Assembly: GCF_035083965.1 (NCBI RefSeq)
Contig: NC_089732.1
Location: 14,552,424-14,616,423 of the forward strand
Source of the DNA: Branchiostoma lanceolatum
Lineage: Eukaryota > Chordata > Leptocardii > Amphioxiformes > Branchiostomatidae
Direction of reading: 5' to 3'
DNA length: 64,000 nt
How positions within the stretch are numbered: the first letter of the stretch is position 1; each line of letters opens with the position of its first letter. The notes below the pieces were generated by a model that saw nothing but the letters and a program-made list of their open reading frames with translations, was not told where the DNA came from and did not search any database. The translations under genes and the position numbers were made by a program. Shown one piece after another: positions 19,905 through 43,259 of the stretch.

Positions 19905-20385
19905 GTGTTTATTTATTCATTTATTAATCTTTAGGCTGGTCCCTTCAGTTAACAAAGTGACTTATTTCCAAGGGAGCCCTTACATTACATGACAAATCAT
20001 AACAAATCAGGATACAAAAAGTTACTTAATAACTTAACATAAACTTAATAAGTGATCAATTACACAATCATATAGCATAAAACAGGAATGATCAAACATA
20101 GGAGTAATAAATCAAACAACTCAGAATAATCCAAAACAATAACAACTCAAAATCGCAAAGGTCATTCAACTGAGGGTCAGGTCAGATGTCAAAGGTTAAG
20201 GGATGTGTATGTTTATCAGATCCCGTTTAAATATGGCGATTGATGAAGCTTGTTTGTTACTAGGATTTAACTTGTTGTATGTTGTAGCAGCCCTGTATGC
20301 AAATGTGTGAAGTCCCGATCTAGTAGTGTACTTAGGTGTGTGTAGTGAATTAGCCTGCCTGGTACTATAGGAAGTATCAGTGCAA
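19905..20385 (-). mobile_element. LINE ORF2 C-terminus with 3' UTR
   Basis: The minus strand from about 20383 reads TPKYTTRSGLHTFAYRAATT and then YNKLNP...SSIAIFKRDL before TAA near 20214. This is the usual LINE C-terminal ending (R-T-xxG...FxYRAAxxWNxLP...SxxxFKxxL). It is followed by an untranslated tail down to about 19905. It abuts the 3' end of the receptor kinase gene. Confidence 0.65.
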
Positions 20386-20439
20386 ATGTAACAAAGCTAT
20401 ATAAACATTTTTTTTTAATCTCATGCCAATCTGTTTATG

Positions 20440-23400
20440 CTACCCTCTGAATCCTTCATCACCACTCACGCCATCACTGCCGTCGGAGTCTACCACCTCA
20501 TATTCGAAATCATCATCTTTGTCAATGTTCACGTAGCTCTGAAACAAGGTGTAAAACAAATGCAAATATATTAGATTGTGCATTAACGTCATACATAGGA
20601 GCTCTATGGACACAGCAAAAGTATAGAGACCCCTATTAGAGATTTCAATAAGTGTCTTAGCCCTTTTCAAATCATTGAAATCTTAGGTCTCCAAGAAAAT
20701 GGCCAAAATCTATGCGCTACATGCATAAATGGTTAATCTTGGTCACCGTTCTGACAAGCAGTTTTGAGCATATTGACATATTACATAAAATATGGTGTAT
20801 GTACATGCATCATTTAGATGTGTTATGAAAATTATATTTCATTTTCCCACTGACTAGACAACTTGAAAAAAATTGCTAGAGGACCATCAACAGAATCGCT
20901 GGTCTAGTATCAGTTAACGGAGGTATGGGTGCTGGAACTTGCAACAAGATCAGTAACGTCATGCGTTGAACCATCAGATTAAAGGCCACAAGACAGTATT
21001 TAAGAATTGCTATCTATTACATGGTAATTATGTACAAAAGAGGCTGTCAAAAGTCACCGAGTTTTCGTTCATGAAAAACATACATTGGCAGGGGTGTCAG
21101 AGCATAATTTCAACTTTCTTATCGGCACAACCCGTATGAATCCGGCCATGTTTACAAAAATTGACCTTTGACCTCCTTCCCTACCTGACTATCACACAAA
21201 AACACAAAACTTCTACTACCTACAGTCACCACAAACATGGATGAAAGTCTGAGTTTTCAACACAATAATAAGGTTAAAAACCTTTACCTGTAACATCCAG
21301 CTCAAAAATACCAACATATCCTAGAAAAAAAAACCTTTACAGCTACTTTTACCAAGGGTATCAAGCCTATCTATAGGCTAGAAGTGGGCCTTCTGCGCCT
21401 GCGCCATTACTGGAGTGCGGCCTAAACATAAAGCTCCATACTCACGTGTTTGTCCTCAATCATGCCCTCTAGCTGTTCAGCCAGGTCGATGAAGGTCGGC
21501 CGGTCCTCCGGACGGGTTTTCCAGCACAACATCATCAGCTGGTATCTAATATAGTATGAACAATCCATGCGTTTCAGATATGTGTTGTCATACTTGTTGC
21601 ATTGCTTAGAATTGCGTGGCATATTTGACACCACAATAGCTATGATTTCTGTGAAATTCAGTGATTTAAAAAAAATCAAATTTCATGTATTAATCATATT
21701 GATAGAAATAAATGATTAGACATAAATTACAACAAAAAAAAAACCATGTAAAAATATTTCAGAGGGGAATACGGCTAAAGAAGTATAAAGAGGGAAAACA
21801 TTCAAGCTTTTTTATGAAGCAACTAAAGAAAAATGTTCTATAAAAGGTTTCAAATGGGGGTCCCGGGGAGGTGCCTCGAGCACGATAAAAGGCACTACAA
21901 CGGCGTCATTACTCAGATGGGTACCTACTTCATGTACTTCAGATGAATATATGAATATTTAGATAACTAAGTAATGGATATAATGGATAAAAGATCATAC
22001 AGTTCTGCCTCGCAGTTCCTTGGTTTCGGCAGCCGGTATCCGTCACGCAGCCGCCCTAGTATGGTTCTTGATTTCATTCCACGGTATGGGGTTCCTCCTA
22101 GATGGGTATTACAGCCATACTAAAATCAGTGTAGCATTGATATCAATCATAATGTGTGCACCGAATGGATCAACAATATTGAAACTCATTAAATACAATA
22201 TAATCTATTGATGTGTAGTTATAATGATTTTCATTCTCACCAATAGTGACGATCTCCCAGAGCAGAATTCCGAAAGACCATCTGAGTAGAAAACAAAAAA
22301 ACAAAAAAACAAGCCGATTAAGCGATGACCATTGACACTAGTACTTTCGTATTGTAACCGTGTGAATTTTTCTGGAGGTATATATTACTAGTCACTGCAC
22401 GAAATGGCCACGTATCCTGACGGATCCGACGTATCCGGAATCGGGCCTCATGGCGTTTCCGAGCGAATCCGGAAAAATCCCAGTTCACTGCTCGGATACT
22501 GAAGTGCCCGCAGATCCGACCAATTCCGACGCCGTATTCTTCTGGATTCGTGATGCGCCTCGGATACCCGAAGATATTTGCGCGGATCCCTCGTTTTTTG
22601 ATATTTGGAATGTTCGGATTGTTTGTATGTCGGTAGTTGCTTCGGATCCTGACGAATAAATACACACGGCACGGCATGATCTCATTTCCTGACGAATCCA
22701 GCAGATCCGGAATTGCGCATCATAGCAGATACGGAACGTTTCCGATTGGATCCGATGCACCTCAGATCAGACAATTCCGGCGCCGTATACGTCTGGATCC
22801 TTCATACGTTTCGGGTACAGATACGGAACGTTTCCGAGCAAATTCAGACAATTACCAGGTACACCTCAGATCCGGCAATTCCGACGCCGTATACGTCTGG
22901 ATCCGTGATGCGCGTCGGATACCTGAGGATATTTGCGCGGATCCTTCGTTTCTAGATATTTGTCAATATGGCAGAGATGTTTGGATTGTTTGTCGGTAGT
23001 TGCTTCGGATCCTGACCAACAAATACACACTGCACGGCACGCGGCATGATCTCAGATCCTGACGAATCCAACAGATCCGGAACTGCGCATCATAGCAGAT
23101 ACGGAACGTTTCCGATTGGATCCGATGCACCTCAGATCCGACAATTCCCGCGCCGTATACGTCTGGATCCTTCATATGTTTCGGGTACAGATACGGAACG
23201 TTTCCGAGCAAATTCGGACAAATACCAGGAACACCTCAGATCCAGCAATTCTGATGCCGTATACGTCTGGATACGTTTCGGGTACAGATAAAATATCTAC
23301 TCGGATCTTTCATTTTTTTATGTATTTGCCAATATGTTAGAAGTTCAGATTTGCCAATATGTTAGAAGTCATGAGCTGTCTCGGATCCTGACGTGTACGG

Positions 23401-26400
23401 AACACGGATTCGTGTCGGATATCCAAATTACCCACAAGACACTTCTGGGCGCGACAAACGTTAACGGTTTTCTTTCGGTTAACAGCACAGACAAGAACGG
23501 CGTTTCATCACCTTCTGTGCTTAACATGGCATCGCCAGAGTCTACCATGGTCGACCAGTGATTTTTGAGTGACTTGAGAGTCGAAGGGAATTCGGTGTAA
23601 ACTCAAACGCACGGAATTGCGACGTTGTCTTCTTCGTGCATGCAATATTCGTCGCCCCCCTCCCCCCTTGTAAACGCTGGTAGGCAGTTGATTCATCATT
23701 TTGAGGGACTGCCCTTTGGTAAGTACAAATTGAAAAATTCCCGTTTCTAACTAGTTTTGACGTCAGTTATCCTCCTATTGTGGCTTGACATATCATCGCA
23801 TTCGCATGACCATAAGAATTCTCCAGCCGACCTGCCCTTTTACGGCGTTAGGATCTAGGAAATTTAAAATTTCAATTTGTTCATTCTTGCCAATGGTCAT
23901 CAGACATGTGTGTCTGGTTAACGTTTCAGATACAAAATAGCAAGCAGTGGAGGGAAAGATAATTAAAGATATGGAAGGGAAGAAAATGTCATAAGTATTT
24001 GTCCCACAAAGATCCCACAGTTTGTGGATAGTGAACTAGAACTTATAAGGAGGCAGTAGTGTGCCTCAGTGATTATTTCATTCAGTTATAGCTGTGCATG
24101 TTTGATCAATATCATATTCAAGTTATAGATGTAAGTTTTACGTAGTCAATTCAACGATGCCCAGATTCATTTTTTTTACACATGCGAGTATGTGATATGT
24201 TTAATATTTGTCATTGTTTCCATTTATATATATATATCCAGTACAGCATCGGCAGATACTTCCTTCACAAATGCAGCACATATTGTGAGGACCTTGGCTG
24301 GGAACAAAGCAATCAACTGTCAGATGCTCAGCTGCTGAGTACCTCAGGCTCCTTTGGTAAGTCCATCATCGGTACACTTAAATGTTAGCTGAGAGAGGCA
24401 TGATGGATATCCATTGTCCCGTGTTTTTTGTAGCTGCTGTGATGAAACGAAGCCCATGTCAAAATCATGTGACATGTTCCTTAAATACGTGAATTGATAT
24501 TTATTCATCATTTGGTTTTATCATATAGGAACTGGTTCATCACAAGATGGACTCCAAGCTGAGTCCAACATGCAGATACAGAAGAAATCAGCCTTGCCTG
24601 TCCCTTACCAAGAGTGCATGGAAGAAGTGAACTCAGATGTAGTCAGAGAATGGGGAGAGGACGATTATACACATGCAGTTCCACGGCATATGCTACTTAC
24701 GTTTAAAATGTGGCGTGTCATCATGGGAGTTCTTCAGACAGTATAATGTTACTTTCTATTTTCAACCTCTGTATTTGAAACAATTGTATCTGATGGCTTT
24801 TAGACGAAGAGCTGGCCACAAATAAGGCTTTTATTACTTTAGTGGAATATTTAGAACATGTAGATGATTTTGGTCCAAGGGCACTATACAGTAGTAAATA
24901 TTACCACAATGTTGTGATGGTGTTAATTGTAATACATTTCATAATTTGTCAGAACATTGTGCTTGCACAACCCCAATTTACCGACATTAACCTGCATATG
25001 CAGTGGTGCTTTGAGTATATGGATGTCCCTCAGCCTGTCTCAAATGAAATGGATCATTTAGCCACATAGTACTTCCGTATTGTATTGTATTTGATAGTTT
25101 TTGAACTTAGAAATACATTATGTTGAGATATGAAATGATACATATGTTACATACAGGCTTTCCCAAACTTCCTGTCATTCAAAATGATGTTTTGGGTATA
25201 GTTAAATTAGGAATGGAAGCACTTAGTCGGATCCGTTACGGATTCGTTGTTTTGTCCACCTGTATCCGTCAGTATTCACCATTTTCTTCAAAATACAGAA
25301 AAATCCCTGTACGCATCCGTCAGGATCTGTGGCATTTCCGTACAGTGTACGGCTCCGTATTCGTCGAAAATCCCTTACTTTCGGATTCTTCAGGAAATAT
25401 TCCATATACCGGTGCGGAAATAGTCGGATACGTTACACGAATCCGTATGTATCCGTCAGTATCCGCCAAAAATACAGAAAAATTCCTGTTCGTATCCGTC
25501 AGGATCGGTGGCATTTCCGTACAGTGTACGGCTCCGTATTCGTCGAAAATCCCTTACTTTCGGATTCTTCAGGAAATATTCCATATACCGGTGCGGAAAT
25601 AGTCGGATACCTTACACGAATCCGCATGTATCCGTCAGTATCCGACAAAAATACAGAAAAATCCCGGTACGTATACGCCGGGAAACGAGGCCATTTCGTG
25701 CAGTGAGTACGTTGATGAGGGTTAGACATCCAGGTAATAAGATACGCCAAAAATTGTTACTCAAGCAACTGGAGAAAATTTTGAAACAGTCAGACGTTTC
25801 ACAGTTTTATCCAATTGCTTGATTAACTATTTTTGGCGTATATTACTAGTATTTGTTTTGTGCAATTAACTACAATCTACTGCATGCTTGTTAAATTGAT
25901 TCAAACATACATGTCACTCTTTGTTGTGTAGATCCTCCTGGTCAGCGCCTCTATCGCGGTGGATCGGAAAGGGATGGCTCTCTGTAATGTCGAAGACAAA
26001 AAGTTACCTCATCAGGGTCTCATCTACATCCTTTCTTTGACCTGCTGCTTCAAATCTGTCAGTTAAAGGCAACCAAAGCAATATCAGGGCAAAAAGAAAA
26101 TGAAAATAAATAAAAGATGCTTAAATCTTCATGGTAGTTTTAATACTGGTTAGCACATCTGCGTAATAACTTCACACTTTGAGCATTTTAAAACCGCGCA
26201 AAATTACGATGACCCCCCTAATTTCGCCCGCGAGCCTACAAAAAACTCCGCCCACGATTTTCAGTGAGTTCTGACATCACAACAACGTCGTATTTTTGTA
26301 TCATGGATGTTGCTATTCGTTGTGATAGTGTTGTTTAAACTAATCATGTACAGAAATGACTAAATAAATTGACTTTCAAGATCCGATTTTCAGTCCGTAA

Positions 26401-29400
26401 TATCGCTTGGGTTTCCTTTAAGAAAATAAACGCCACCTCTATGGTGCTAAAGGAAATATATATAGCTGACCAGGCGATTGATAACAGAGTGTCTCCATCA
26501 TCAGAATATTGTAATCATATATACCTTTGACGTCTGTTCATAGATGCCCTCCCCACGTGACAATCCAAAGTCGGCAACCTTGGCAATGAGGTTATCCGTG
26601 AGGAGAACATTCCTGGCAGCCAGGTCACGGTGAATCACCTGTCAAATATTCAATAACATTTTTTTTTAATGTATTTATTTATTTATCAATCAATAAACAA
26701 AGTTAATGAATTGTTAACAACGTTGTAAATTATGTCTTGTGTGTGGTTCAAGCACCAGCTAACTGCTGCCTGTGTGCCTTACACTCTATGACATGTACCT
26801 CATCCCAGCTATCCCTCTTCGACCGTTAGGTCACCCTCTGACAATACTTCAGTTTCTACACTGTTTTATTTCTTCCTGGTCTTGTGATCTTAGAATATAA
26901 TCTCCCTGTATGCCATCTGAGCAAGCAAGCAACAAAACAGACTGACTCACCTCCTTGGCAGACAGGTGGCCCATTCCAGTTGCTACGTCACAGGCAATAC
27001 GCAGCAACTGGACAGGCGATAGGGTGGACAGCGTGCGGCCGTTGAAATCTGACCGGCTGTTGGCGTAAGTTGGAGTCACAACTTCCTGCATCCGGGAGTT
27101 CCTCAAAAACTTCAACAGATCGCCATTTCCAGCCATTTCAAGAGCCATGTACTGCTGACCTGGATCGAATTTATTTTGATTATTTCATTAAACAAGAAAT
27201 CAACATTTTTCTTACTTTATATGACATGCTAGATATAGTTTTAGGCCACAGTTTAGTAGCATTTCAACTGTTAGGCAAAAACAAGTCATTTAGAAGTTGC
27301 CCAAAACCCTAAGGTTGTCTAGATTTACCCGCTGCGTGTATGTGCTGCTTTTGTATGCTAATGATGATCACGCGGTTGATTTGAAATTTAACAGAAAGGG
27401 TTAAATGCATTAATTATGTAGTCTCACCTTGGTAAATACAGAACCCAAGAAGGTTGATGATGTTAGGATGATACCCAACATGGCGCATGATGTTCACCTC
27501 TTGCTGAAAGTCCTGCTTGCTAGTGTCATCTGCACCACCTATAGCACGGGTAGGCAATTTTATTTATTTTCTTATTTATCTATTGGTTCAGCCAAGGAGG
27601 TTAAAATACCTATTTTAACCTCCTTGGTTCAGCATGTATATGCCAGGGTTGCCCAACTAGCCGGAGGCTATTACTAAGGGCGAACCCATGTGTGGTCATA
27701 GGACTGTAGGTTTTGGACCACTCACACCGGGGCATGGCCCTACTCTTTTTCGAAAGGTGTGGTGGGTTCTTTTACGTGCGCGGGGTTGGGCTCTCCCCAA
27801 ACACGGGACCCCATTTAACGTCCTATCCGAGGGACGTCCCTAACCCTAAATGAGCTAGGTATTCATTTACACCTGAGTGAAGTGAGGAAAGTCATGTTAA
27901 GTGCCTTTCCCAAGGGCACAACGTTGGGGCGCATGTCCAGACAAGTATGGGGGCAGTCTGGGTTCGAACTCGGGTCCCCTTGTTTCACAGTCGTATGTGC
28001 TATCCATTACGCCACACGACGACACGGGTAGGCAATGTTACATTAATTTTGGGATGCTCAATATTGTAGCTGATTATGCGTTTGTATGTATCTGAACGGC
28101 CAGTTTCAGATAGTATCCACTAACTATCGTCGGTGACTGTAGTATTTTCATTCGTAACTAGTATAAATTTATTCGCTTTTATCTCATGAACGTAATAATG
28201 CATTTATGTATTTGTTCAAATGGCTCTACGATGTTAATTGGATTGTATTGATTGTAGCATTGTATTTAAACTAGTGTTGTGTAATTTCCATTGCCTATGT
28301 ATCTGTCTGGCCATAAATGTCGACTCTCCAATTAATATCAGCTACGCTTCCTCGAGAGTCGGTGTAATGTATTTTAGCATTTGACAATGAATGTAAATGT
28401 ATTCGCTTTATAGCATAGCACACTTATGTATAGAATGGCGTCATAAACAGATGATATGTAGGAGTAATGTGTTGGCATACGTTTCAATATTTTGATGGCA
28501 GATGGAATCCGTTCACCATCGACCATGACTGTTCCCTTGCGGACCTCTCCAAAGTGCCCTGCTCCGAGCAGATTGGAAGTAAGAGAGATGTCTTCCCAAG
28601 TCAACTCCCTGTTGTAATCAGTTGGCAAGATCTCCAGGGGAATGTGTTGAAGAGGCTGTCATGCAATAAAGCAAAAAAATAACAACACAAATAAATCATG
28701 GCTTTTGTAGATAGCATCATGTGAGGCAAACGAAAGTCATCAAAACAAATACATGTATATTGATGAACATTACTTCTACATAGAATATCTCTACAAGAAT
28801 TGTGATATATATCAGCAGCTTGCATGTACAGCAAGAATGATTTTTTGAGAGTAAGAATGGTACAAGGAAACTCGATAACAGTATTGATGGGAAGGATAGT
28901 GGTATTCTATTTTAATATCACTGCAGAATTGGATACCATAATCTCTTTTTTTTACAGTACATTTTATTTGATATCTATATTTGATATTGCTATGCCTGTC
29001 TTTGGTTCTATGTGATACGATATATATTTCATTTTCTTACTACTTACCGAAATTGGAATCCGAACCTCGTTGTTTCCGGCTGCACCAGATGCTGCATCAG
29101 TGTCATCCCTCGCATGGTGTCTTGTTTGTTCTGAAAAAGAAATAGCAACATGGATCATTTAACCATTTAGATTTAGAAACGGAAAACTTGATCTATGCTA
29201 TTGTAAAGGCAGTAACAATATTCCAATTGAATTGCGACTTAGCACAGATTTATAAAATGCCATTTGGTATACCGTGTAAGCATTTTACAGCTAGTTCAAA
29301 TAGAATTTAACTACTTTACCTGCTACATCTACAAACGACGTATTGACGTATCCGGTCACGTTTTGTGACGATTCTTCAACTGAAGGTGTACTGGTTCGCT

Positions 29401-32400
29401 TCTTTTTTCGCCTGTCAATTAAGATACGGATAAGAGACTGCATGTTTATACAACTATAGAGATCTTCAGTCGGTTAAGTTGATAGATACATTTTTCGACA
29501 TAACTTTAAACGCTGAAGTATAATACCAGCTAGTTCATAGAGTTCATATAAAAAGTCCTGCAGAAATAACACGTGCTCAGAAATGATGAACTTAACCTTA
29601 CCTGCGCATGAAGAAAACAACAACGACCCCTAGTATCAAAATAAGAACTGCAGCAACTCCGCCCCCAACTGCAGCCGCCACCACGTTAGCTGATTGACCT
29701 GCAGGTATATTCAGTCAATCCATGATTTCTTCAACTCGACTTATGTGTAATACGTCAAAAGAAACAATAGGCGTTTAAAATAACAAACTTTAATTTTCTC
29801 TTTGGTTTAAGAGCATGATTACCGCCAAAATTAGCGACTTTCATTTGATTTTTAAAAAAAATTGGTACCATATCTACCTGGTACTGTCGTACTCGATGAC
29901 AAGGGCGTTGTAGACGTCTGAGTTGATGTTGTTGTTATTGTACTTTGTGTAGTTGTCCAGGGCGGGGTTGTTGCGGTAGAGCTTGTAATGGTTAACTCTG
30001 AGAGGGGACACATTAGTTTTAGATTCCCGGTATCATCAAGATAGCTAATGTAAAAGCAGATCGTTTTGTGCCGTCAGGAAATGTTTGTAAAAATGTTACC
30101 ATTGCATTGCATTTCAACCAACGCCGGTAAATTGAAAATGGATTGTCTAATACATTAGAGCCAGTTAGTATTTAATTACCTGTTACTGCTGTATTGGGGC
30201 CTTGGCTTGCAGTTCCAGCCTCTGCAGTACGTGTCGATGTAGTTGTGGCAGAACTCGTTAACAAAGGTGTTGTCGACGTCGTTGTTGTTACTGCGCTTTG
30301 TGTCGTTGTCCAGGACGGCGTTGTTGTAGGAAAGCTTGTTATAGGTAACTCTGAAAAGGTGCACATGCGTTTTAACGTGCGTTTTTAGCTTCCGGCTATC
30401 AGGATATCATAATATTGATTGTTGATTTGTCGGAAATGAAATTAAGTTGAATATGATGTTAGATACCGTCCAGCTATTCGTGAAAAGTCATAGTTTCGGA
30501 TCCAGCTTACTAATATGTAACGAGAAACTTGTTTCTGAGGTTTTATCATTTTTTATCCATAAGTTATTTTAGCTACTTACCATCGACTCCGAGTAGTTCT
30601 ACCCGTAGTCTTGATGCTCCAGAAAACGTTTGGGGGTTCACCAGAATATACCGGGCGTAGATGTAGGGAGTGAAGTTGTTTTGAACAATCGTCTCGTCGT
30701 CGCTATTTCCGGTAAAAATCTGAGAGACGAGAAATACAGTTATCAATTGAGAGCTGAGGCTCACAAACATAACATAATAGTATTACGTTTATACTACCAT
30801 CAGAATACAAAACTTATTGCTTAAGAATAGCTTAAGATACAACGTATGTCTCGTTCTGTAGAATATTTATTTTATTGCCCTATATTTACAGTGATGCAAT
30901 TTAGTCACAAGCTGCATTGGTGCAGTAGTAGTTTGAAAATAAGTAAATATTAAAGCTTTTGTTCTCATATGATCATTGGCGTGAGGCCAAGGATTGTTCG
31001 ATTAATTGCCCGTAGAACTGCCCAAGCTGGTGCCTAAGTTCCGAGCGTGACCAGAGATAAAGAACTCGGGCATCAGCGAGTTCTTAGCGAGGCCGTAGGC
31101 CGAGAAAACATCATATTCAAGTTTGCTGCATTCAGAACGTCAAACAATACATAAATGCGAGTCTGATTGTTTCCAGTGTTATAGTTGATTCTAGTATCAA
31201 ATGGGGAGCAATGCATGACATGTAGGGGTGGGTACCGGTACAGAAGATTCAGGTCCGGTCCAGGTCCAGGTCCAGAGGGCCAGGTCCAGGTCCGGACCTG
31301 TACCTGTACCTGATTATAGTCGTGTCTCAGTACATCATATTTTGGAGAGCGAGACACTAGTAAAGGCCGTTGTGAGTCCTACGGGTTATGTTCAAATTGT
31401 ATATTAGAATTATCGGTGCATATTAATATGCAAAAAGAAAACGAAGATGTACCGAAGCATGCAACCATGTATTCAAGGTAACTTTTATCTCACAAGAGTG
31501 ATTCATAGCAACATTGTTCTTCTTTGAGTACAATGTAGTTGACAACAACTATATACATTATGACCAGAATTTTCTAATCGGTCCATATGCCGGTCCACTG
31601 AATTTTTCCGGACCGGTTTTTTTGGACCGGTCCATAACAAAATACCGGTTTTGGACCGGTACACTGTACCGGTACCCACCCCTAATGACATGTATATATA
31701 GCTTTAATGCTTTTCTTACAAAAGTTTGTAAACGATGCAAACCTAAAGCCATTCACCATCTTTACTTCCTTGACCAACGTAATGATTGACGATCATCAAA
31801 AATGATTTTAAAAAATGTTGATCAAATTAAGTGAGCATAAAGCTTACCTTGGCACTTCCACCACCCTCCGAGTAGAGAATGACATTCGATGTGTTGTCCC
31901 GCTGGTATATAACCCTGTAGGTTTCGATGTAGCCATCTCCCTGTCCCTGGGTCTGGATACCGAAAATGTAACGAGCGTATAACAGATCTACAGCCAGGGA
32001 CTCTGTACCCTGTCCTGACACCGGTCCTGACGGCTGCCATGCACCATCGCCGTTCAGACGGCCCCTGAACGCCTCGGATCCGTTTAGTTGCGATGATGCA
32101 GTCATTTGACCATCTGTGATGATTGTGTCATCCTGTACTCCAAATGGCTGGTAAAAGCTCGATACCCTGTCAGTTAATGTGGTACTAGGCTGGGCACACA
32201 CTGTATAATAGGTTGTGATTAAAAAATATATATTTGGTTGGAAACTGATTGTAGCGGTGGAGAACGCAATGGGTAGAGCGGCATTTTACAAGATACATGT
32301 ACGTTAGACAAGGAACTAAGTGAAAGAAGAAAAACAAACTCTTATGATGTGTCAGTAAGTAAAAGAAGATCAAAAAGTGAAATTGCAGCTCGATGGCTTG

Positions 32401-34078
32401 TTCAGCCATATGGCAGCTTCATAATAGTTCAAGGATGGGCGGGCGAGTTTGTGGGGATAAATCAGAGCCCCGCCTCCCGAGGAGTTTGTTGGCGTCCCGA
32501 GGGCGTAGCCATCTGTCCGAAGCAAAGCTAAGCATACATATTGGGAAATAGTTTGACATATACACAGAAACAAACACAATATGCCTAGGAATGTTTGGGT
32601 TTGCAATTCTCTTTTTCTTAGAATAATCCCCAGTCCACATGAGGTTTTACTTCTGTGGTTCAGTTGAGGTGACAGGCGAGTACCAAGGGGTGACCATTAT
32701 TTCCTCTCCGGAGCTCCTTTGAGGCTGAGGTGCTTTAACCAACCTGGAATCTGGTCTCAGCCAATGGAGAGCCAGACTTTCTGTTAAAGCACCTCTGCCT
32801 CAAGGGAGAGAGGTGCATTAACTATCTTTGGCCATGTGTGTGGATTTCAAACAGCAAAATACCCGCTCCTGATTGGCTAAGGACAGATGGCTGTGCTCTA
32901 AATTATAGATAGCATTTGTTGATATCCATTGGGTATTTGAATTTGCATTTTGTGGATTACATAAAATTCCTCATGATCCAAACCCAAATTTTCTATTTCC
33001 CAGATCGAAAGCTACATGCCTTTTAATGTTGTGACCATAACATGTCCTACTCTCTACCAGACTAACTACCTGGCTGTAGGAAGAATGATATGTGTCGTGC
33101 AAGTTGGGGCACTATAAGACATTGGCCTGACACAGTCAGCTACCTTTCTATCGGGGAAATGTTACCTTTCCCGAAAACTGACTCTCTTGGCTAATTTGTC
33201 CCCTTTTTGCCGAATTCTACTATTTTTTCCCCGTAACAGGCCAAATTTAGGCTTAGCATGACTAGAACCTGAGTTACAACGACCGGAAGTTCCGCTGGGG
33301 TCATTGTAGTTTGACAGATATCATTGAGTGCACAATGCCATCCAACGTGGTAAGCAATTTGACACCCAACATGGAAGCCCGCCTGTGACCTCTGACCCGT
33401 GACGTCAATGCAAGTGGCCAATTACGAATACGTAGGTCTTGTTGATTTGTTTTCTTCACACCTCTTTACACCATGACGAAATTTCATAACATCATATCAA
33501 TAGATTCTTGAGTCATGCTATCAAAGCCCAGACGCTTCTTTTGATATAGCAATCATAGATAAAGTGGGGTCGTGTGGCGTAACGGCAGGATTTTCGACTC
33601 AGAACAAAGGGGTTCCGGGTTCGAATCCCCTGCTGCCACCGATCTTGTGCCAGTTGGGAAAAATGGACTTAACACGATTTCCCCCACTCCAGCCAAGTGT
33701 AAAACATGGCTACATTATGTGTGTGGGTCACGACATCAGCAATAGCTGCCTGTGTCCCACGTGTATTGCACTGTTGCAATTCCAATAAATCCAAATACAA
33801 ATCATAGATAAGAATATGATACAGGTTCTTACACCACTTGAACAACTATGTGAAGAACTCAAACAAGTCAGAGTCTTACACCACTAGAATATGCAATGTT
33901 TTTAACGAACGACGCCAATGGTTCGTGGTCAATTCGTCACCAACTTCTAGTTTTTCACATGACTAGACGTCATTTTTTCAAAACTTTAAAAACTGATAGG
34001 CAATAAAATCGTCATACCTGTGATAATGACCATGCAAAGAACAACGGCGAAAAAGAAGTGGCGTCCAAAACCCGCCAT
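20440..34078 (-). CDS. Receptor tyrosine kinase with discoidin ectodomain and Tie-like kinase, 17 exons
   Basis: Exons: 34078-34018, 32200-31848, 30719-30581, 30350-30180, 29997-29878, 29698-29602, 29411-29320, 29130-29048, 28655-28481, 27538-27428, 27159-26951, 26638-26525, 25981-25911, 22281-22241, 22097-22001, 21545-21446, 20538-20440; all phases join to give 710 aa. Order: signal peptide ([20 protein letters not shown]), F5/8 type C domain (about 22-184), Thr-rich stalk (185-281), transmembrane helix (about 285-310), juxtamembrane YVN motif, kinase (about 395-675). Kinase marks: [11 protein letters not shown] Lys427, helix-C Glu444, [19 protein letters not shown], and a tail YVNI after EDKH that parallels Tie receptors. 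It should phosphorylate tyrosine at the plasma membrane and recruit Grb2-type SH2 proteins at YVN sites. Odd point: the P+1 loop reads [11 protein letters not shown], with Ser-Thr where Trp-Met is usual. Confidence 0.9.
22393..25705. mobile_element. CACTA (EnSpm)-type DNA transposon, 3.3 kb, in an RTK intron
   Basis: It starts CACTGCACGAAATGGCC and ends with GGCCATTTCGTGCAGTG; AGT flanks both sides (22390-22392 and 25706-25708). A CACT(G/A) start with a 3-base target duplication is the hallmark of the EnSpm/CACTA superfamily. Both subterminal regions are arrays of short GTATCCG/CAGATCCG motifs, with a tandem duplication of about 369 bp on the left and about 179 bp on the right. The centre (about 23310-25190) contains a two-exon ORF. 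No transposase domain was recognised, so it is probably non-autonomous. Confidence 0.88.
24242..24746 (+). CDS. Unrecognised two-exon ORF inside the CACTA element, partial
   Basis: Exon 24242-24356 follows TATATCCAG and ends at a GTAAGT donor; exon 24529-24746 follows a TATAG acceptor and runs to TAA. The phases match (1 then 2), giving about 109 residues: a piece beginning [20 protein letters not shown], a Ser/Gln-rich middle, and an end with [15 protein letters not shown] do not recognise a domain. The splice signals and open frame suggest a real gene piece, either an uncharacterised transposon protein or a captured host fragment. An upstream start exon was not found; the frame just before 24242 runs into low-complexity TATATA sequence. 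Confidence 0.4.
25709..25840. repeat. Interspersed repeat copy beside the CACTA element
   Basis: It matches the repeat at 4253-4502: GGTTAGACATCCAGGTAATA, then CAGACGTTTCACAG. It ends with an inverted CAATTGCTTGATTAACTATT. The CACTA element inserted at its edge. Confidence 0.55.
26063..26421. mobile_element. MITE family 2, copy 3
   Basis: It has the same TTAAAGGCAACCAAAGCAAT end and inverted partner as 6325-6685 and 10517-10932. It lacks the mini-palindrome found in the second copy. It lies in the RTK intron between exons 25911-25981 and 26525-26638. Confidence 0.8.
27559..28022 (-). mobile_element. tRNA-derived SINE with 14-bp target duplication
   Basis: The minus-strand head carries TGGCGTAATGGAT and GAGTTCGAACCC (Pol III A and B boxes); the body matches 16995-17328 and the tail is A/T-rich. 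CACGGGTAGGCAAT at 27545-27558 and 28023-28036 is a perfect target-site duplication. A palindromic mini-element (27593-27626) is nested near its tail. It sits immediately upstream of RTK exon 27428-27538. Confidence 0.88.
27593..27626. mobile_element. Palindromic mini-element nested in the SINE
   Basis: CAAGGAGGTTAAAATA...TATTTTAACCTCCTTG, a 34-base palindrome with a 2-base centre. GGTTCAGC (27585-27592) is repeated directly after it (27626-27633, overlapping by one base). The sister SINE at 17290-17328 runs through the site uninterrupted, which shows this is an insertion. Confidence 0.75.
31223..31684. mobile_element. hAT-like transposon, 462 bp, perfect 8-bp target duplication
   Basis: The ends TAGGGGTGGGTACCGGTACA and TGTACCGGTACCCACCCCTA are perfect 20-bp inverted repeats. 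ATGACATG flanks both sides (31215-31222 and 31685-31692). The inside is rich in CCGGTCC and AGGTCC repeats and has no transposase. It lies in RTK intron 2. The intact ends and target duplication suggest a recent insertion. Confidence 0.93.
32650..32830. repeat. Inverted-repeat element in RTK intron 1
   Basis: GAGGTGCTTTAAC (about 32728-32740) is answered by GTTAAAGCACCTC (about 32783-32795), with further partly paired sequence outside (CTCTCCGGAG... / ...GGGAGAGAG). It looks like a small foldback element. Confidence 0.55.
33563..33799 (+). mobile_element. tRNA-derived SINE with 12-bp target duplication
   Basis: The head contains TGGCGTAACGGCAGG and GGGTTCGAATCCCC (A and B boxes). The body is about 150 bp and the tail is AATAAATCCAAATACA. 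AATCATAGATAA occurs at 33551-33562 and again at 33800-33811. It shares the tRNA-head style of 27559-28022 but has a different body, so it is a second SINE family. It lies in RTK intron 1, antisense to the gene. Confidence 0.9.
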
Positions 34079-35541
34079 CTTGACTCGCCTGAATGATCTG
34101 GGGAAGTTTGTTCAGGTGGCATGCGTGGCCTCCTTTAGCACACAACCGTGTACCTGGCGGTGTATTTGGTAAATAGTTCAGTTGACACCAATCTATTCTG
34201 CTGTCTCCGCTCACAGCTCTACTAACACCTTGTCCGTGATTCACAACCGACCAACCGAAGCATTTCCATGGTGAACTGACACACATGTCCGCCCAAGTCA
34301 GACATTCCCGATACGCGTTTTATCCAAGCGAGAACGAGAGGTCATCTAGGTCTGTGTGTAAGAAAGTTTAAATGTCATTTTCCATTATATGCATAGATAT
34401 GCCATTATCATTCCCCGTAATTTTGAAGAAAAAGCCATTCGATTTAACCAAAATTCTATCGCAAGGGCCAGCCGGCGATCGCTAATCTAGCGCCTCGGCG
34501 AAACTGGCACCGGAAATACCTCATGCATGTAAACAAAAGCTTTCATGAATAGCTTAACGGCATACTGCATCGAGCATAGTTTCGAATCTTTATGCACCAC
34601 GTACTGGCACTTCCCTGTACTTGTGCCCCTGACAAGTTGCATATCGACAAAATTCATGGAACATCCACATAATTTCTTATTACATTGGTACAAGAATAAT
34701 GCCCTGCAACCAACAGCATTTCTTACGAGGCTTAAAAACTGGTGGCGTTCTTGTTATAATGCGCAGAAGCTCAACCCTACTTACACTTTGCACTTCCCTT
34801 AACCCAAATTAGAAATTTAAACTGAATAGACAGGACCCCAGATTGCCCTTACGCAGCAGTTATTACACCTAGAATACATTTTTTCGAAGTTCATGAACAT
34901 TTATTCATTTATTTAATTTATTCACGAACATACTCATAAACATATCCATGGACACATTCATGAACATATTCATAACCATATTCTAGAACATATTCATGAA
35001 CATATGCCTTTGACTTGCCTTCAAAGGTTCCGGTAGCCCCCAAGTACACCCAATTTTCATTCAACATAACTCTATTACAAAATGTCATAGAAGAACCCTG
35101 TAACAACGTGTAAAAGAAATATCAGACTAAAGTGGATACTCCTAGGATCTACTCTTCGCAATTCATCCAGCAACATTTACACCAAGTCATTATATGTTAT
35201 GATAAGGTCCAGAACTACCGATATGTACATTCGAGCTTTCTGTCATAACTTGAGTATGGATACTGGCAAGCTAAGGTTATATAAGACATGTAAAACATCA
35301 TATACCAGGGAAAATGCATGCACTTAACAACAACACGTTATCATGATGGTGTTGATCATGTATATATTTATCTGTTTATCTACGAATACACATAGTATCA
35401 TAGGGCTCACGCTAGCTTGTTATATGCATTATCAAAGTAAGACCTATCTCTTTTCGTGAAGATAATATATGTCGCGACTTTAAGCCGAATCCAAAAAGTA
35501 AAGCTCACACACAAGGTATGGTGATAACATTGATCGGCGCG
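34079..35541. other. Spacer between the RTK start and P450 gene A
   Basis: From about 34260 the spacer matches the blocks after P450 genes B and C (about 41705 and 48570), so it is the leftmost copy of the duplicated unit. It includes a shortened LINE-related piece (about 34490-34870) and a 12-bp tandem repeat at 34920-35010 (ACATATTCATGA units). The promoter of the RTK must lie in the first about 200 bases beyond 34078. Confidence 0.55.
34920..35010. repeat. 12-bp tandem repeat
   Basis: Imperfect copies of ACATATTCATGA. The array is present only in the leftmost duplicated unit. Confidence 0.75.
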
Positions 35542-38500
35542 CTAAGCCAAAGGTTCGGCGACCAGTTCGAAATTCTTGGGCGAATGGGTGACGCCGCTGA
35601 TCCCTGTGGTGGACGGCTTAGCAGCGCCCTCTGGCAGCTTGAAGGTGAAGTGCTGCAGCAGGGACGTGAAGAAGACGAAGAGCTCCATCTCCGCAAGCTG
35701 CTTCCCAAGGCACATGCGCGGACCTGTGTGAGATGACAAGATGCATGGTTTCAAGTTTCAAGAAACGGATAAGAAAACGACGACATCGTTGGTAGCCCTA
35801 GACGCTAAGGATATGATGAGGATGAACTTGAAAGATATATAAAATACATAGCCTCTGCCATGCCCCTCGGAGGGCTGCAAAAATAGTAGCTTCCGTTGCA
35901 GGCTTCTCCCACGCCCACGGCGACCTTTCGACTTGTCGGGGCCAGATTCTTTGGCCGAGGGGAGAATCTGCTTGGAGACCGTATCTGCTTGTGGCCCCGT
36001 ATCTGCTTGGGATCATGTAACCGCCAAGCAGGTACAGGTTCTCAAGTAGATCACTTAGCTCCCAGCAAAAAAAACAGTTGAAAAGTCGCCGTGGGAGAAG
36101 CCTGCAACGGAGGCTAGAAAAATAGTAGAAATTGACCAAATAGAGTGAATAGTATGTTATGGAAGGCTATGGAGAAAGGGCCAAATATGCCATTCAAGGT
36201 AGATGGCCGTTGGTCCCTCTATCCGTAGCCGATTTCCTTAGTACTATTTACTCTATTTTTCCAATTTCTACTATTTTTCCAGCTATCTGCGGAGCCTGGT
36301 AAAGGCTATTGCAAGATGGTTACTGGCATTTAGACAGCGCTCACACAGTGAAAAGCACGGAATCCAGGCCGGTACGCCAAGCCTAGGGTCACTGTTTAAC
36401 ACACTTGCATACAAGCAACACACTTGCATACAAGCGGAACAGCTGGCATAAGAATCTGCTCTTACGACTTACCCACACCAAACGGGATGACGTGATCGTC
36501 CCTCCTGTACTGTCCCCGGGAGTCCAAGAAGCGGCCGGGGTCGAACTTTCCGGGGTTCGGGAAATGGTCCGGGTCGTGGTGGACGGACCACAGGATGGGC
36601 TGTAGAACGGGAGAAAATCATGGATGAATCTTTAATCGATTTCTCATCGTTTTATGTCAGACACGCTTGTGTTTATCAAGCGACGACCCGAGCATATCGT
36701 CCTGGGATCCGACCTCCTCACTGCGTTTGGACTTACCAGCCGTCCCCAGCCAATCATGTCGCCGCTTACGGTAAGGACACAACGTGATTGGCTGGTTCTA
36801 GTAACCTTCCCTCCAACAAGGGGGAGGAGGGGGACTCTGATTGGCCTAGGCTTAAAGGCAGTGAGAAGGACGCATCGCAGGCATGTACGCCAGTATGATT
36901 GATACTGATAGTGCTCATATAGTGCTCAGATGGTCGTTTTAAGGGACTGTACGATATTTACCGGGGGGGGAGGGCTGGTGGAATGGGGGGGAGGGCCATC
37001 GAAAAAAATTTTGGCCCGGGGGGAGGGCCATTGAATTTTTTTTTGAGCCAGGGGGAGGGCCATCGAAAAAAAAATTGGCTTGGGGGGAGGGCCATCGAAA
37101 AATTTTTCTGAATATCTACGATATAGTCTAACCTTCTGGAAATGTTGTAAAATTCGTTATATTTCTCGGCGAACATAGCGTTACGGAACAATCTGCAAAT
37201 AAGAACGCTACTGCATCCCTATTTTCTAATGGACTCGTCGAAATCCCATAACCCCTTGCAAAATCAGCTCCAAAATGGCGTGGCTCGGAGCGAAAATGTC
37301 GAAAAACGAGGATAGTAGGCTAACTTTTACTCAAAAGCGAAGCAGGCTGCGGGTAGCCAGTAACATACACCCAAGGCTGCGAATGTCGCTGCAGCCTCTC
37401 GATGCTAGTGAGACGGTGGAGAAGCTCTCCGGATTGAGAGATCACACAAAGCGCGACGGGCCAGCGAGAACAAAGTTTTCGGCTCTGTTGAGAGTACTGG
37501 AAGAGCTCCAACTTCCAGAAACTGAAGACCAGGAAAGTTACGTGTTGTTTGGGAACTAGGTTAATCTAAAAGAGCCTGCCAGCCTTGGTCAGACTTAACC
37601 ATGATGTTTGGCTCAAAACGTCTCTTTCAACTATTACCCTGGGTGTCTAGATATTCAATAGCAAAAAAAGAAGACAAAAATAAAATCTTTTTGTCTAGAA
37701 CATGTCTAGAAACCTGAAGATATACAATACATTTTCGACGTGGAAAAATACACAGAATGACAGCGGAAAGATAAATCAGACAGTTATCTTACCAGCACCG
37801 TCGTTCCTTCTGGTATGTGGTATCCATGGAAACTGGTGTCACGTGACGTGGCGTGGAAGGCGCCCATCGGCGTGATGCTGCCGATGCGGGCCACCTCCGT
37901 CAGGACGGCCTCTGTGTACGGCATCTGGGCACGGTGGGCGGTGGACGGCCGCTGGTCGTGTCCGAGTACGGAGTGGATCTCCTTCTGAACCTGTAAACAA
38001 AATTAGATACACGTAGAAAATTATAAAGATCATGATAGAATTGGATTTTTTTTTAAAGAAAAGGTTCAGTCAGCAATATTTCAACTGATAATTCGGCCAT
38101 CCTCAGGAATTGTGGTCCACTGACTTCACAACATGTGACCAAACGGAAAGGTGACGTCAGTAAAGGATCAAAGGTGCCCGGAAGCCTGTACCGCCCCCCG
38201 TCCCGATTGGCTTCATACATCATTATCCTGAGATAGGCCGATGGTGCGCTTGTTACCTTTCTTTGGATGTCCGGGTTCAGAATCATGTACAGAAACGCCC
38301 AGTTCAGAGTAGTGGAGGTGGTTTCTGCACCGGCGATAAACAAGTCAAACAGCACCCATTCTGTGTAGTCGTCAGTGAACGTGGTCTTGTCGTCGTTCTC
38401 GCGAGATTTGGTTTCCCGGACGTATGAATCGATAAGGTCCCGGATGTCATTGGGATCGAATGTCTTCTTGTGGGTATCCATCTCCTCTCTGAGGTAGGCT

Positions 38501-41217
38501 CTAATCGTGACCAGGTCATTTTGTATCATCTTTGGACCTCGCCCAAGTCCCGGCACACGTCGTAAAGTGGGGAAAAATATCGCCAGTTGACCAAAAAAGT
38601 TGAAGGATAATCCTCGGTCAAGGGCGTCCATCAAGCGCTTGAACTTCTCGTCGTTGTATGCGAACCTGATGAAAAGAAAAACAAACGATTGACGTGTCAC
38701 ACATTTTCACAGCAAAAGAATTCTACAAAATTTCTCATCACTGTTTTATCTTTTTTCAAAAGATTACCTTGATCCGAACACAATGGAACAGATGACGTTG
38801 GTGACGGCATTCTGGACCATGCGGCTTATGTCAAACGGCCTGTTCCCGATCTTCATGATCTCTGCCTGTAGAGAGACAGACTCCTCCAGGATCTTCCCCT
38901 CCAGACTTCTCTTCCCGAAGCCGAACTCCCGGAGAGACATCAGCGTAAACTTGCGGTGTTCTTTCCACGGAGTACCAAAAGGAGCCCCGACGATGCCTAC
39001 ATGTGTAGAAAAAAAGTATACATTACTTCCAACGGCAAGTCCTTTAAAGTCCCTTAGGAATCCTGTTTAAGCTGACTATAGCTAGTTTTGGAATAGAAAT
39101 GAAGGGATGTTTGCAAAGAGCTGAATCGCCGTCACAGTAATCATAATCAATATATAAAGGGCAATAAACAAGCTTACCGATGATATAGAATGCAATGTAA
39201 TTGATCTTGTTCTCTGGGGGCCTACTACTAAAAGGAAAAAGAGGAAAGGGTAAACACAGGGACACCTACTAAGGAGAGTTCCACGACCTCATATCAAGTT
39301 ATTTTGTCTCGGGTAAGTGGAAATGTACCCGTATAGGTGCAGTACAGTACATACGAAGGCCCATAAGTACAATAAGAAGCCTATTTCTATCCAGTGCGGG
39401 TAACGTTATTTAACGTGAAACCGGGATTTTTTGTCGATATGATTTAATTGAAACCAATCTGGTTGAACAATAAACCATCTTTTTTCTGTTATTGTCAATA
39501 TCATGGATTACCTTTGTACTAATGCTATATATTCTATCTAGTCGTGTTGATACCATAATAGTGTAATTAAAACTACCATCCGCCGCACGCAGAATGACGG
39601 TGCTCTCGGACAGGTGCTAACATTTTTCGGGAGAGAAGATTCGTCATTAGTATATTGCCGCTAATTAGCTTTTATACAACAGCTATTGTTCCCATTTTGG
39701 CCTGAAGAGAGTTCTAAGGTCATATAAACGTGTCTAAGCAACAAAAAACACACGACAAAACGGCCATAGCGCACACATCAGGCCTTCGGTAACAACCCGT
39801 TTGTTGAGTCGGTAGAACGTCACTCAAAGCTGACCCCCACCGCCATGGCAATTTGTACATTATTCATCGGGAGGTTAGCTGGATGGCGATGCGATCGACA
39901 AAAAACAAGTTTCCGAAATTTGTGTTGAGCATAGCGCATTGTAGCTTACCTAGCCTCTCTGGGTTGAAAAATATAGTTATGGCGTTAGCTGGTCTGCTGG
40001 AGAAATCTTCTCCTCTCTTCACCATAGCCTCGTGGATGACGTCATATCCGGAAAGCACAACATTCGTTTCGTTCCCAAGCTTGATCCGATATATCGGTCC
40101 GTACGTCTTCGCCCATTCGGTCATCGTCACAAAGCGATGGCCCTTGGGTAAAGATAGGGAACTTAGTAATCAGTGTAATGTATTGCATAAGCAGTACTTT
40201 CAGAGGGGGTGAAGGCCCGGGGGGAGGGGGGTGGTGGGGGTGGCAGGCTCATGCTTCAAATCTATGCCAGTAAAAGAATCCCACACACACAAGTACGCAT
40301 GTACACCCGTACGTAGCCCTGGACACACACGCAAGTAAGAACGCGCGCTAAAATCATTTTCCCACACAAAGATGTTCTGCGTTCTTACTATACACATAAG
40401 GTCGACCCCTGCCCTGTGTATATATTTGACCAAGGAGGTTAAATCTCCTTGATTGGACGCAGGACGGCTTTGCATGGGAGAACAAATGAAATCAGGTCGC
40501 TGAATATGCCTTGCCAATTCCTAATAAGGAAAAATGTCGAAACTACAGGTGTGCTAAAATGTACAAGTGTCTTTAATACCAGTGTGAGAGGTACACAGGG
40601 ACCTTACCTTGTTGTCAAACAACTGGATTTTGTTTGTTTGTTTGAACCTTTGTTTACTCATGATAAGCTCAAACCGCCACGCAGGCCGCTTTTCATTCAG
40701 GTCATGAGGGAAGAGGTAACGGTCAGATACAATACAACAGAGATACACTGTCATTTGAGTCCTGATATCTCTATCAACATATATCATTGCATATTTATGG
40801 TACAACTATATACAATGGCTACAACATACAACATACAGTAGGGCTCTGAAGCTGGTTCATTATACCGTGTCCGTTCGTTTTGTTCATTTTCGTTACTTCA
40901 AGAGTCTCTTAAAGGAAGTCAGATTCGGAGCCGTACGTGTGTCTGGCGGTAGGCTGTTCCAGACAGGATAAGTTGAAATGCTTATGTCCAGTACTTGTTA
41001 CGTGATCGTTACTATACTGCCCTGTATGGTTAATTTTGCTCACCGTGGCGAGGGAGAAGATATTGCCGGCGATAGGCCATCCTCTCGGGCCGGGTGGAAG
41101 ATTCTTTGGGGTGTTGAAGAACCAGTAAGTCGCAACGAAAATCACCAAAAGGACCAGAGTCGTCTTCAAGATCACGTTCTCTTCAACTAAAGATGCAACC
41201 AACTGCGCGGCAGCCAT
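35542..41217 (-). CDS. Clan-2 cytochrome P450 (CYP2-like), tandem gene A, 7 exons
   Basis: Exons: 41217-41044, 40142-39950, 38996-38768, 38665-38257, 37990-37793, 36599-36473, 35723-35542; phases agree and give 503 aa. An N-terminal signal-anchor helix (TTLVLLVIFVATYWFF) is followed by the Pro-rich hinge LPPGPRGWPIAG of microsomal P450s. The C-helix WKEHR, the I-helix AGAETTST, the K-helix EVAR (Glu367/Arg370), FDPGRF, and the heme loop FGVGPRMCLG with Cys448 are all present. It should be an ER monooxygenase fed by P450 reductase; the closest vertebrate style is CYP2U/CYP2J, but the subfamily is not settled. The stretch just after EVAR reads IGSITPMGAF, unlike genes B and C. Introns carry a G-rich tandem repeat, a CCAAT-bearing MITE and part of a larger inverted-repeat element. 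Confidence 0.92.
36118..36283. mobile_element. Small inverted-repeat element in gene A intron 6
   Basis: AAATAGTAGAAATTGACCAA at the left is answered by TTTTCCAATTTCTACTATTT at the right. It is about 165 bp and absent from genes B and C. One end resembles 9005-9180. Confidence 0.7.
36690..36898. mobile_element. CCAAT-bearing MITE, copy in gene A
   Basis: The outer ends ...CCGACCTCCTCACTGCG and CGCATCGCAGGC.. are imperfect inverted repeats; inside are inverted CCAATCATGT / ACGTGATTGGCTGG pairs. Related copies are at 43905-44118, 51063-51283, 62306-62524 and 63425-63608. Confidence 0.7.
36958..37560. repeat. Gene A-specific insert: G-rich tandem repeat and a 94-codon open frame
   Basis: 36961-37110 holds about four copies of a 38-40 base unit GGGGGAGGGCCATCGAAAA. 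To its right, 37275-37559 is an ATG-started open frame (MAWLGAKMSKNED...) with no recognised domain. The corresponding intron in genes B and C lacks this material. It is probably part of an inserted element rather than a host gene. Confidence 0.45.
39398..39890. mobile_element. Part of a larger inverted-repeat element, gene A intron 2
   Basis: It begins GGGTAACGTTATTTAACG and contains a block (GTTGAGTCGGTAGAACGTC, then TGGCAATTTGTACATTATTC) found inverted in 55565-56653. The same piece is at 46269-46745 in gene B. The far end stops short of exon 39950-40142, so the copy is truncated there. Confidence 0.6.
40431..40451. mobile_element. Palindromic mini-element, short form, gene A intron 1
   Basis: CAAGGAGGTTAAATCTCCTTG: a 7-base arm on each side, the same ends as 10808-10846 and 27593-27626 but with a collapsed centre. 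The duplicate in gene B is at 47293-47313. Confidence 0.55.
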
Positions 41218-43259
41218 CTTTATTTTTTAAAAGGTCAACGTCCAAACGGTCAACACCCTGACTGATATTTTCTACTCAATGGAGTATGAGAACGCGCCGT
41301 TATGCAGATTAGGTCGCGACCATCGCACTGGAGACACAAACAAATATCCGGGATTTGTTCCTCTGATTCAGTCATTGTGATTAACCCTTCTTATTCACGA
41401 CCAGGTTTCTACATTTGCGAAAGCTGTTTATTTCAATGTAAGCATCTGATCATAAATATGTTACAAGTTCTATTAGAAACTGAGTTTTCACAGACGTGTG
41501 GAAGTTCTGTCACAATCTATCCCGGACGTGAAAGGTGCCCTCCCCACATCGTTAATGACTACATGTACTGTATATTTTGACCTACTTGGCTATTATAGTA
41601 CAAGTCACCAAAAAGCCCTCCCCCTGTCTGAATTGGGTTAATAATAAATTATAGTATGATAACTTTTATTTACAAATGCATGCCCGTATAGACCGATTGC
41701 AAATTCAGTGAACTGACACACATGTACCTCCAACTCAGACATTCTCGATACGTGTTTTATTCAAGAGAGAACGAAATGTCATCTTGGTCTGTGTAAGAAA
41801 TTAAAGTCTATTTGTGTGCATAGACGAGCCATTTGGATAAACCGTTATTTGTAGGAAAAGCCATTCGATTTCACCGAAATTCGATTCCTGAATCTAGCAC
41901 CCAGGCGAAACACCGTAAACACCTCATGCATGTAAATCCTCACGTAACAATGGCCTTCCTCGAGCAAATTTGTCTTTGTGCTCCCCCACGTACGCCCTGC
42001 ACTTGTCAGAGGCACAACGCACAGAAAATTGCATATAAAAATATCCATAGAAAATCCACACTACTCTTTATTACATTGGTACAAGATTAATGACCCTAAG
42101 AAAGCAACTGCAATTCTTACCAGGCTTATAAGCTGGCGGTGTTCATTGGACATTTTTTGGTTACAATGCGCAGAAGCCCAACCCTACTTATACTTTACAC
42201 TTCCCTTCTTTCCTTGATGAATATAACCCCAAATAGAAAATTGAACAGACAGGATCCCAGATTGCCCTTACTCAGTAGTTATTACACTTAGAATACATTT
42301 TTTTTGCAAAGTTCTTTTAACTATCGCCGAACTACGACTAAACTAAGGATCAGCAATCATTCACTGCAAATTGGAGTTGGCAGGTGCAACCAGACTCCAC
42401 CAAATAACAGAATGTGTACATTTTGTAACAATGATTTTATAGAAGATGAAATACACTTTATTTTAGAATGCTCACTATGCTCAGGCATGCGCAGACCCCT
42501 TGTAAGTTCCATACAACTAGACAAGAAATATGCGCATCTTACAAATAACGAGTTATTCACATGTTTTATGTCTTCTAGAAACAACGATAAAATTGGAAAA
42601 CGATGTAAATTTGTGAACAAATGTTTCAAGAAGAGAGAAGAGACTCTGTAGATTTAGATGAATATAGCGCAATGTTCCTTTTCTTTTACTTCATATTACC
42701 CAATGTATTTCGCCCATGTTGGGCATGAATATGCAATAGAGTTCATTTTTATTGTCATTAACTCACCCCCCTGACATGGCCTCAAAGTTTCTCGTAGCCC
42801 CCGGTGCACCCTATTTTTACTTCAACATACTATTAACTCTATTACAAAAAGTCGTAGAAGAACCCTGTTACAACGTGTAAAAGAAATATTAGACTGTAGT
42901 GGATACTCCTTTCTGTTCAACTCTTACAATTCATCCAGCGACATGTAGACTTAGTCAGTATGTAATTTGAAAAGGTCCAGAATTACCGATATGTACATCC
43001 GAATTTTCTGTCATAATTTGAGTATGAATAATGCTAAACAAAGATATGCAAAATATCATATACCATGAAAAAAATTCATGCACTTAACAACAACGCATTA
43101 TCATGATGATGATGATGATGATGTATCTATCTAATAATATCTATTTACATATAATTCACATAGTATTCATAGAGCTCACGCTAGCTTGTTATATGCATAA
43201 TCAAAGTAAGACCTAACATCTGTCGTCAAATATATCATATGGCGGTAACAATAAGCACG
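41218..43259. other. Spacer between P450 genes A and B, with promoter of A
   Basis: The first 40 bases beyond the A start codon contain AAAGGTCAACGTCC and ACGGTCAACACC (41229-41257), kept in B (48097-48124) and doubled in C. The rest matches 48085-50090: a LINE tail and A+T-rich sequence, ending at the stop of gene B. Confidence 0.6.
42100..42652 (+). mobile_element. LINE C-terminal fragment between genes A and B
   Basis: The plus strand reads KLRISNHSLQIGVGRCNQTP, then CTFCNNDFIEDEIHFILECS and a basic end KCFKKREETL before TAG at about 42649. This is the zinc-knuckle-like C-terminal domain of a CR1/RTE-type reverse transcriptase. It has been copied with the P450 unit (see 48962-49513), so it is older than the A/B duplication. 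Confidence 0.7.

Follow-up and report, generated by a model that had tools for sequence, protein, structure and literature searches.

Which receptor family does a tyrosine kinase belong to when its predicted extracellular head is a discoidin domain and its kinase resembles that of the Tie receptors? The question is raised by a locus of Branchiostoma lanceolatum (contig NC_089732.1) lying in the window, that is, the whole 64,000-nucleotide stretch of DNA analysed here, for which an earlier note made from the letters alone had proposed a phase-consistent model of 17 exons. In this study, all of these exons were recovered from the minus strand (34078..20440, the TAG stop ending at 20440), the introns between them are all GT-AG and in phase (16/16), neither stops nor broken splice sites were found in the gene model, and the resulting protein of 710 residues contains the kinase and tail motifs that had been quoted. 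The domains, their order, the phases and the affinity of the kinase are thus read from the sequence itself, and the exons are given below together with the nearest exon of the upstream neighbour.

35545..35757, minus strand: last exon of the upstream P450 neighbour, outside the receptor gene and its 5' bound, with a gap of about 1.46 kb to the receptor start codon
34018..34078, minus strand: exon 1, start codon and signal peptide (hydropathy); donor CACAG|GTATGA, phase 1
31848..32200, minus strand: exon 2, residues 21-138, completing the signal peptide and covering the N-terminal two thirds of the discoidin (F5/8 type C) domain
30581..30719, minus strand: exon 3, residues 139-185, with the remaining third of the discoidin domain
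30180..30350, minus strand: exon 4, symmetrical (1-1), coding for Thr/Ser-rich stalk
29878..29997, minus strand: exon 5, also symmetrical (1-1) and coding for Thr/Ser-rich stalk; a duplicate of exon 4
29602..29698, minus strand: exon 6, transmembrane helix, which has a motif of small residues and a basic stop-transfer
29320..29411, minus strand: exon 7, juxtamembrane, GYVNT (Tyr335)
29048..29130, minus strand: exon 8, juxtamembrane
28481..28655, minus strand: exon 9, start of the kinase, Gly-rich loop LGAGHFGEV (402), catalytic Lys in AIK
27428..27538, minus strand: exon 10, kinase alpha-C (QQEV, 442) to beta-5
26951..27159, minus strand: exon 11, kinase insert and alpha-E
26525..26638, minus strand: exon 12, catalytic loop HRDLAARN (540), DFGLSRG (560), short activation loop of Tie type, Tyr570
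25911..25981, minus strand: exon 13, P+1 loop, Ser-Thr replacing Trp-Met at 582-583
22241..22281, minus strand: exon 14, alpha-F
22001..22097, minus strand: exon 15, GGTPYRGM, as far as alpha-H, phase 2 end
21446..21545, minus strand: exon 16, alpha-H to alpha-I, end of the kinase
20440..20538, minus strand: exon 17, C-terminal tail and stop codon

Exon 13 (25981-25911) has the correct phases and aligns with Tie2 position by position; the stretch 22384-22313, another candidate for the P+1-loop exon, was ruled out, having neither a phase-2 donor nor a kinase fit. Imperfect tandem repeats (22508-23276 and 25290-25705) take up roughly one third of intron 13, which is 3.6 kb long. At the two ends of the gene, a 113-codon Cys/Trp-rich open frame without any Pfam match lies over the start region in another frame (33981-34319, minus strand), and a frame 3' of the receptor stop (20196-20396, minus strand) looks by eye like the reverse-transcriptase tail of a LINE. 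No tandem paralogue of the receptor was found in the window, all tblastn matches at E<=0.01 being the model's own exons, nor were any tRNA or Rfam families, and a search for relatives in viral contigs gave six pattern matches, none of them confirmed. The P450 neighbour belongs to a tandem array of three P450 genes (35525-55325, minus strand), in which 37725-43479 and 44580-50310 share 95.3% identity (5784 bases) and pieces of a third copy are about 86-94% identical; this array is a recent segmental duplication. The window also holds a further P450 exon (9776-10045, minus strand, E 7.7e-06), by eye of a different, mitochondrial-like type, and a protein-tyrosine phosphatase exon (61004-61303, minus strand, E 8.8e-17).

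With the Pfam cut-off set at E<=0.001, three families pass in the 710-residue model (PF00754, PF07714 and PF00069), and no kinds of domain other than F5/8 type C and kinase were detected. The tyrosine kinase family PF07714 covers residues 400-670 (270.8 bits, E 1.3e-80), and PF00069 overlaps the same region (E 8.3e-36). When the kinase was compared with PDB chains, exon 13 being entered as X in the query, Tie2 was the top match with 273 bits, about 80 bits above FGFR4 (191 bits, with PDGFRA at 191 and FGFR3 at 188) among the best 60 of 2230 matches; the 253 bits of a chain holding two EGFR kinases, also in this list, are a sum, its best single stretch giving 99.6 bits. Identity in a six-kinase alignment is 47% to Tie2, 41% to FGFR1, 39% to RET, 35% to VEGFR2 and 32% to DDR1, and among these five comparison kinases Tie2 alone shares 27 residues with the receptor, each of the others 5-9, seven of the 27 lying at or past residue 675, the point at which the sequences of the other four stop. 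Phylogenetic analysis grouped the kinase with Tie2 at 98% (six taxa) and 100% ultrafast bootstrap (eight taxa, TRKA and INSR being added; all are PDB kinases, and the set is without invertebrate kinases or Tie1). By the AU test all other placements were rejected, six of six in the smaller set (p <=0.016) and three of three in the larger (p <=0.005). The SH test left unrejected a placement as sister to RET/FGFR1/VEGFR2 with six kinases (p 0.21) and two looser groupings with eight (p 0.06). The earlier claim of a Tie-like kinase distinct from that of the DDRs is thus borne out, and the phylogeny that it had called for places the kinase with Tie2, a DDR1-sister position being rejected by AU in both sets and by SH with eight kinases only. 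As far as the predicted protein tells, the kinase is of Tie type. Since its branch is long (0.91, against 0.40 for Tie2, in the eight-kinase tree) and neither invertebrate kinases nor Tie1 were compared, it may belong to a Tie-related family outside the sampled set.

The extracellular head is of quite another provenance. PF00754 (F5_F8_type_C) matches residues 52-169 with 55.4 bits (E 8.7e-15), well past its gathering score of 28.2 bits, and it does so exactly once, in agreement with the single discoidin domain proposed before. Hydropathy, calculated with a 19-residue window and a threshold of 1.6, likewise recovered one signal peptide and one transmembrane segment as expected, only two stretches (residues 1-30 and about 283-316) rising above 1.6. 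The discoidin domain contains no Cys at all, the only two among the first 281 residues (15 and 22) both being read as inside the signal peptide, and it carries three N-glycosylation sites, at 60, 123 and 153. Factor VIII and V chains top the PDB ranking for this domain by whole-chain score, in which two domains are summed; a single factor VIII domain gives 44 or 39 bits, and the DDR1 and DDR2 discoidin domains give 43-44 bits (DDR1 43.9). Since single factor VIII domains score level with DDR1, the head has no clear nearest family. Its identity is 36% to factor VIII C1 and factor V C2, 31% to factor VIII C2, 25% to NRP1 b1 and about 31.5% to DDR1/DDR2.

What such a head might bind can be narrowed to some extent. 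Ten residues of the DDR2 collagen trench are given in an excerpt of PMC4332414, and none of them (0/10) is identical in the receptor, one being a conservative change of Thr to Ser and one falling opposite a gap; the loops of the domain are short, so the alignment of the trench there is uncertain. The suggestion of a collagen ligand thus fares poorly as far as the DDR mode is concerned, and DDR-style collagen binding by this cysteine-free head seems unlikely from its residues. None of eight residues of the NRP1 C-end-rule pocket is identical either. We infer that a glycan or a protein is a more likely ligand than fibrillar collagen or bare phospholipid.

Between the head and the membrane lies a stalk of 97 residues (185-281), most of it encoded by exons 4 and 5, in which 40 Thr and 16 Ser uphold the Thr-rich stalk on two exons that had been described. 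The stalk is probably O-glycosylated. Exons 4 and 5 are 74.8% identical over 131 aligned positions, intron edge included. Inside the cell, a juxtamembrane segment of about 78 residues precedes the kinase, and two YVN sites are present, GYVNT (Tyr335) in the juxtamembrane and SYVNI (Tyr680) in the tail, the latter aligning at the position of TYVNT in Tie2.

Taken together, we consider it highly probable that the locus is a single gene for a single-pass receptor tyrosine kinase, in which a Tie-type kinase and tail are joined to a foreign ectodomain of one discoidin domain and a Thr/Ser-rich stalk. The most obvious challenge to this reading is that two adjacent genes, one for a secreted discoidin protein and one for a Tie-like kinase, have been misread as one. 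The gene model is known from DNA alone, hexamers resembling poly-A signals occur on the gene's strand between the discoidin and kinase exons (AATAAA at 28968; ATTAAA at 30176, 29794 and 28916; raw positions without a chance expectation), and translation continued out of exon 5 would run into a stop within a few codons. PMC4967905 also argues that, where lancelet species differ in their domain architectures, errors of gene prediction are the probable reason. However, introns 3 to 8, which separate exon 3 from exon 9, measure only 230, 182, 179, 190, 189 and 392 bases, so that a gene boundary would hardly fit between discoidin domain and kinase; their phases match, the transmembrane exon links both parts in phase, and, without a dedicated search, no further signal peptide was noticed ahead of the kinase. 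As the P450 gene ends about 1.46 kb upstream, only this gap and introns 1 and 2 could house any missing 5' exons of the ectodomain. Pfam found no Ig, EGF or FN3 match in the 710-residue model, nor in any of 20 selected longer ORFs (45-113 residues) from these introns and the gap, where stray matches stayed below the cut-off (LSM12_LSM, E 0.083; Ldl_recept_a, E 0.32). Given the short in-phase introns and the lack of Ig, EGF and FN3 in the scanned ORFs, a two-gene chimera is unlikely, and we allow it a slim chance. Judging from the hexamers and the stop soon past exon 5, a short secreted form is possible.

A different objection is that the receptor is a DDR, a collagen-sensing receptor tyrosine kinase that has drifted and no longer has its DS-like domain. 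Like a DDR it would be a receptor tyrosine kinase with a discoidin domain, one whose identity (about 31.5%) and score (43-44 bits) to those of DDR1/DDR2 have been noted above, and with six kinases the DDR1-sister tree is merely 11 log units worse (AU p 0.016, SH 0.21). With eight kinases, however, that tree is 57 log units worse (AU p 8e-10, SH 0.0005); DDR1 is the least similar of the five kinases, the trench residues and cysteines are missing, and the 97-residue stalk is too small for a DS-like domain of about 180, all of which makes a drifted DDR extremely improbable. Less remote, and compatible with the single-gene Tie-type receptor except on signalling, is a receptor that derives from Tie but, its kinase being weak or retuned, would act as a co-receptor or decoy while its partners signal; Tie1, for example, modulates Tie2. 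The kinase differs at eight of the 63 positions that are invariant in the five other kinases, and two of these changes, Trp582Ser and Met583Thr, adjoin in the P+1 loop, which reads RST against RWM, as taken directly from the DNA. The kinase had been called complete; this holds, though its P+1 loop is without the Trp-Met of the five aligned kinases. A methionine of the activation loop is highly conserved in longDE kinases, according to an excerpt of PMC8662651, and is taken here to be the P+1 methionine that is changed. These changes could reduce or redirect kinase activity. Against a weak kinase, the receptor retains the catalytic Lys, the alpha-C Glu, HRD, DFG and the Tyr of the activation loop, and the gene has no stops or broken splice sites; with Lys, Glu, HRD and DFG in place, the predicted kinase is probably active, with an altered grip on its substrates being possible. 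A co-receptor or decoy seems doubtful to us, with some chance of being right.

How the Tie-type receptor with a discoidin head might work can be sketched from its parts. A multivalent extracellular ligand would cluster the receptor, the small-residue motif of the transmembrane helix may aid pairing, and the clustered kinases would transphosphorylate, with Tyr570 of the activation loop and both YVN tyrosines (Tyr335 and Tyr680) as targets. Grb2-type SH2 adaptors prefer pYxN, and the phosphorylated YVN sites might recruit adaptors of this kind. The ectodomain was probably gained by exon shuffling. We lean towards the view that such shuffling recoupled a Tie-type kinase to a cysteine-free discoidin sensor, a further and independent joining of F5/8 domain and receptor kinase besides the DDRs, and that the P+1 loop was retuned and YVN docking doubled.

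Among known systems, Tie2/TEK, the angiopoietin-1 receptor, is the closest inside the cell, with 47% kinase identity, a short activation loop after DFGLSRG, GGTPYxGM and a YVN tail. The ectodomain of Tie2 is composed of Ig, EGF and FN3 domains, whereas the lancelet receptor has one discoidin domain and a Thr-rich stalk without any match to these three, and it further differs by its P+1 loop (RST, RWM in Tie2) and long kinase branch. Factor V/VIII C domains bear Trp/Phe membrane spikes; the loops of the receptor are short and without such spikes, and it also lacks the terminal disulphide cysteines of these domains and of the neuropilin b domains. The DDRs share the single-pass build and the N-terminal discoidin domain, yet the receptor kinase is not that of a DDR, a DS-like domain is missing (one F5/8 match, a 97-residue stalk), the collagen-trench residues and cysteines of the discoidin domain are absent, and the juxtamembrane has about 78 residues as against 170 in DDR1b (excerpt of PMC4332414). 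A list of domains alone, discoidin plus kinase, would misleadingly point to a DDR. No Tie-type kinase with a discoidin ectodomain is named in the literature, as judged by titles and abstract starts among the matches listed, and absence from print is not claimed. SpTie1/2 of sea urchin has been named an invertebrate Tie orthologue (excerpt of PMC12113024), thus Tie kinases predate vertebrates, and the ligand-binding domain of Eph receptors has been proposed to derive from a discoidin-like fold too (excerpt of PMC6485061). If the gene is transcribed as modelled, a Tie-type kinase is used with a sensor other than Ig/EGF/FN3; the angiopoietin link would then be only one of the courses open to a Tie-type kinase, and discoidin heads would have joined receptor kinases more than once. 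On the evidence of its predicted protein, the receptor is neither a Tie receptor, from which its ectodomain sets it apart, nor a DDR, from which kinase and trench do, and this suggests that a vessel-receptor kinase was given a new sensor in evolution.
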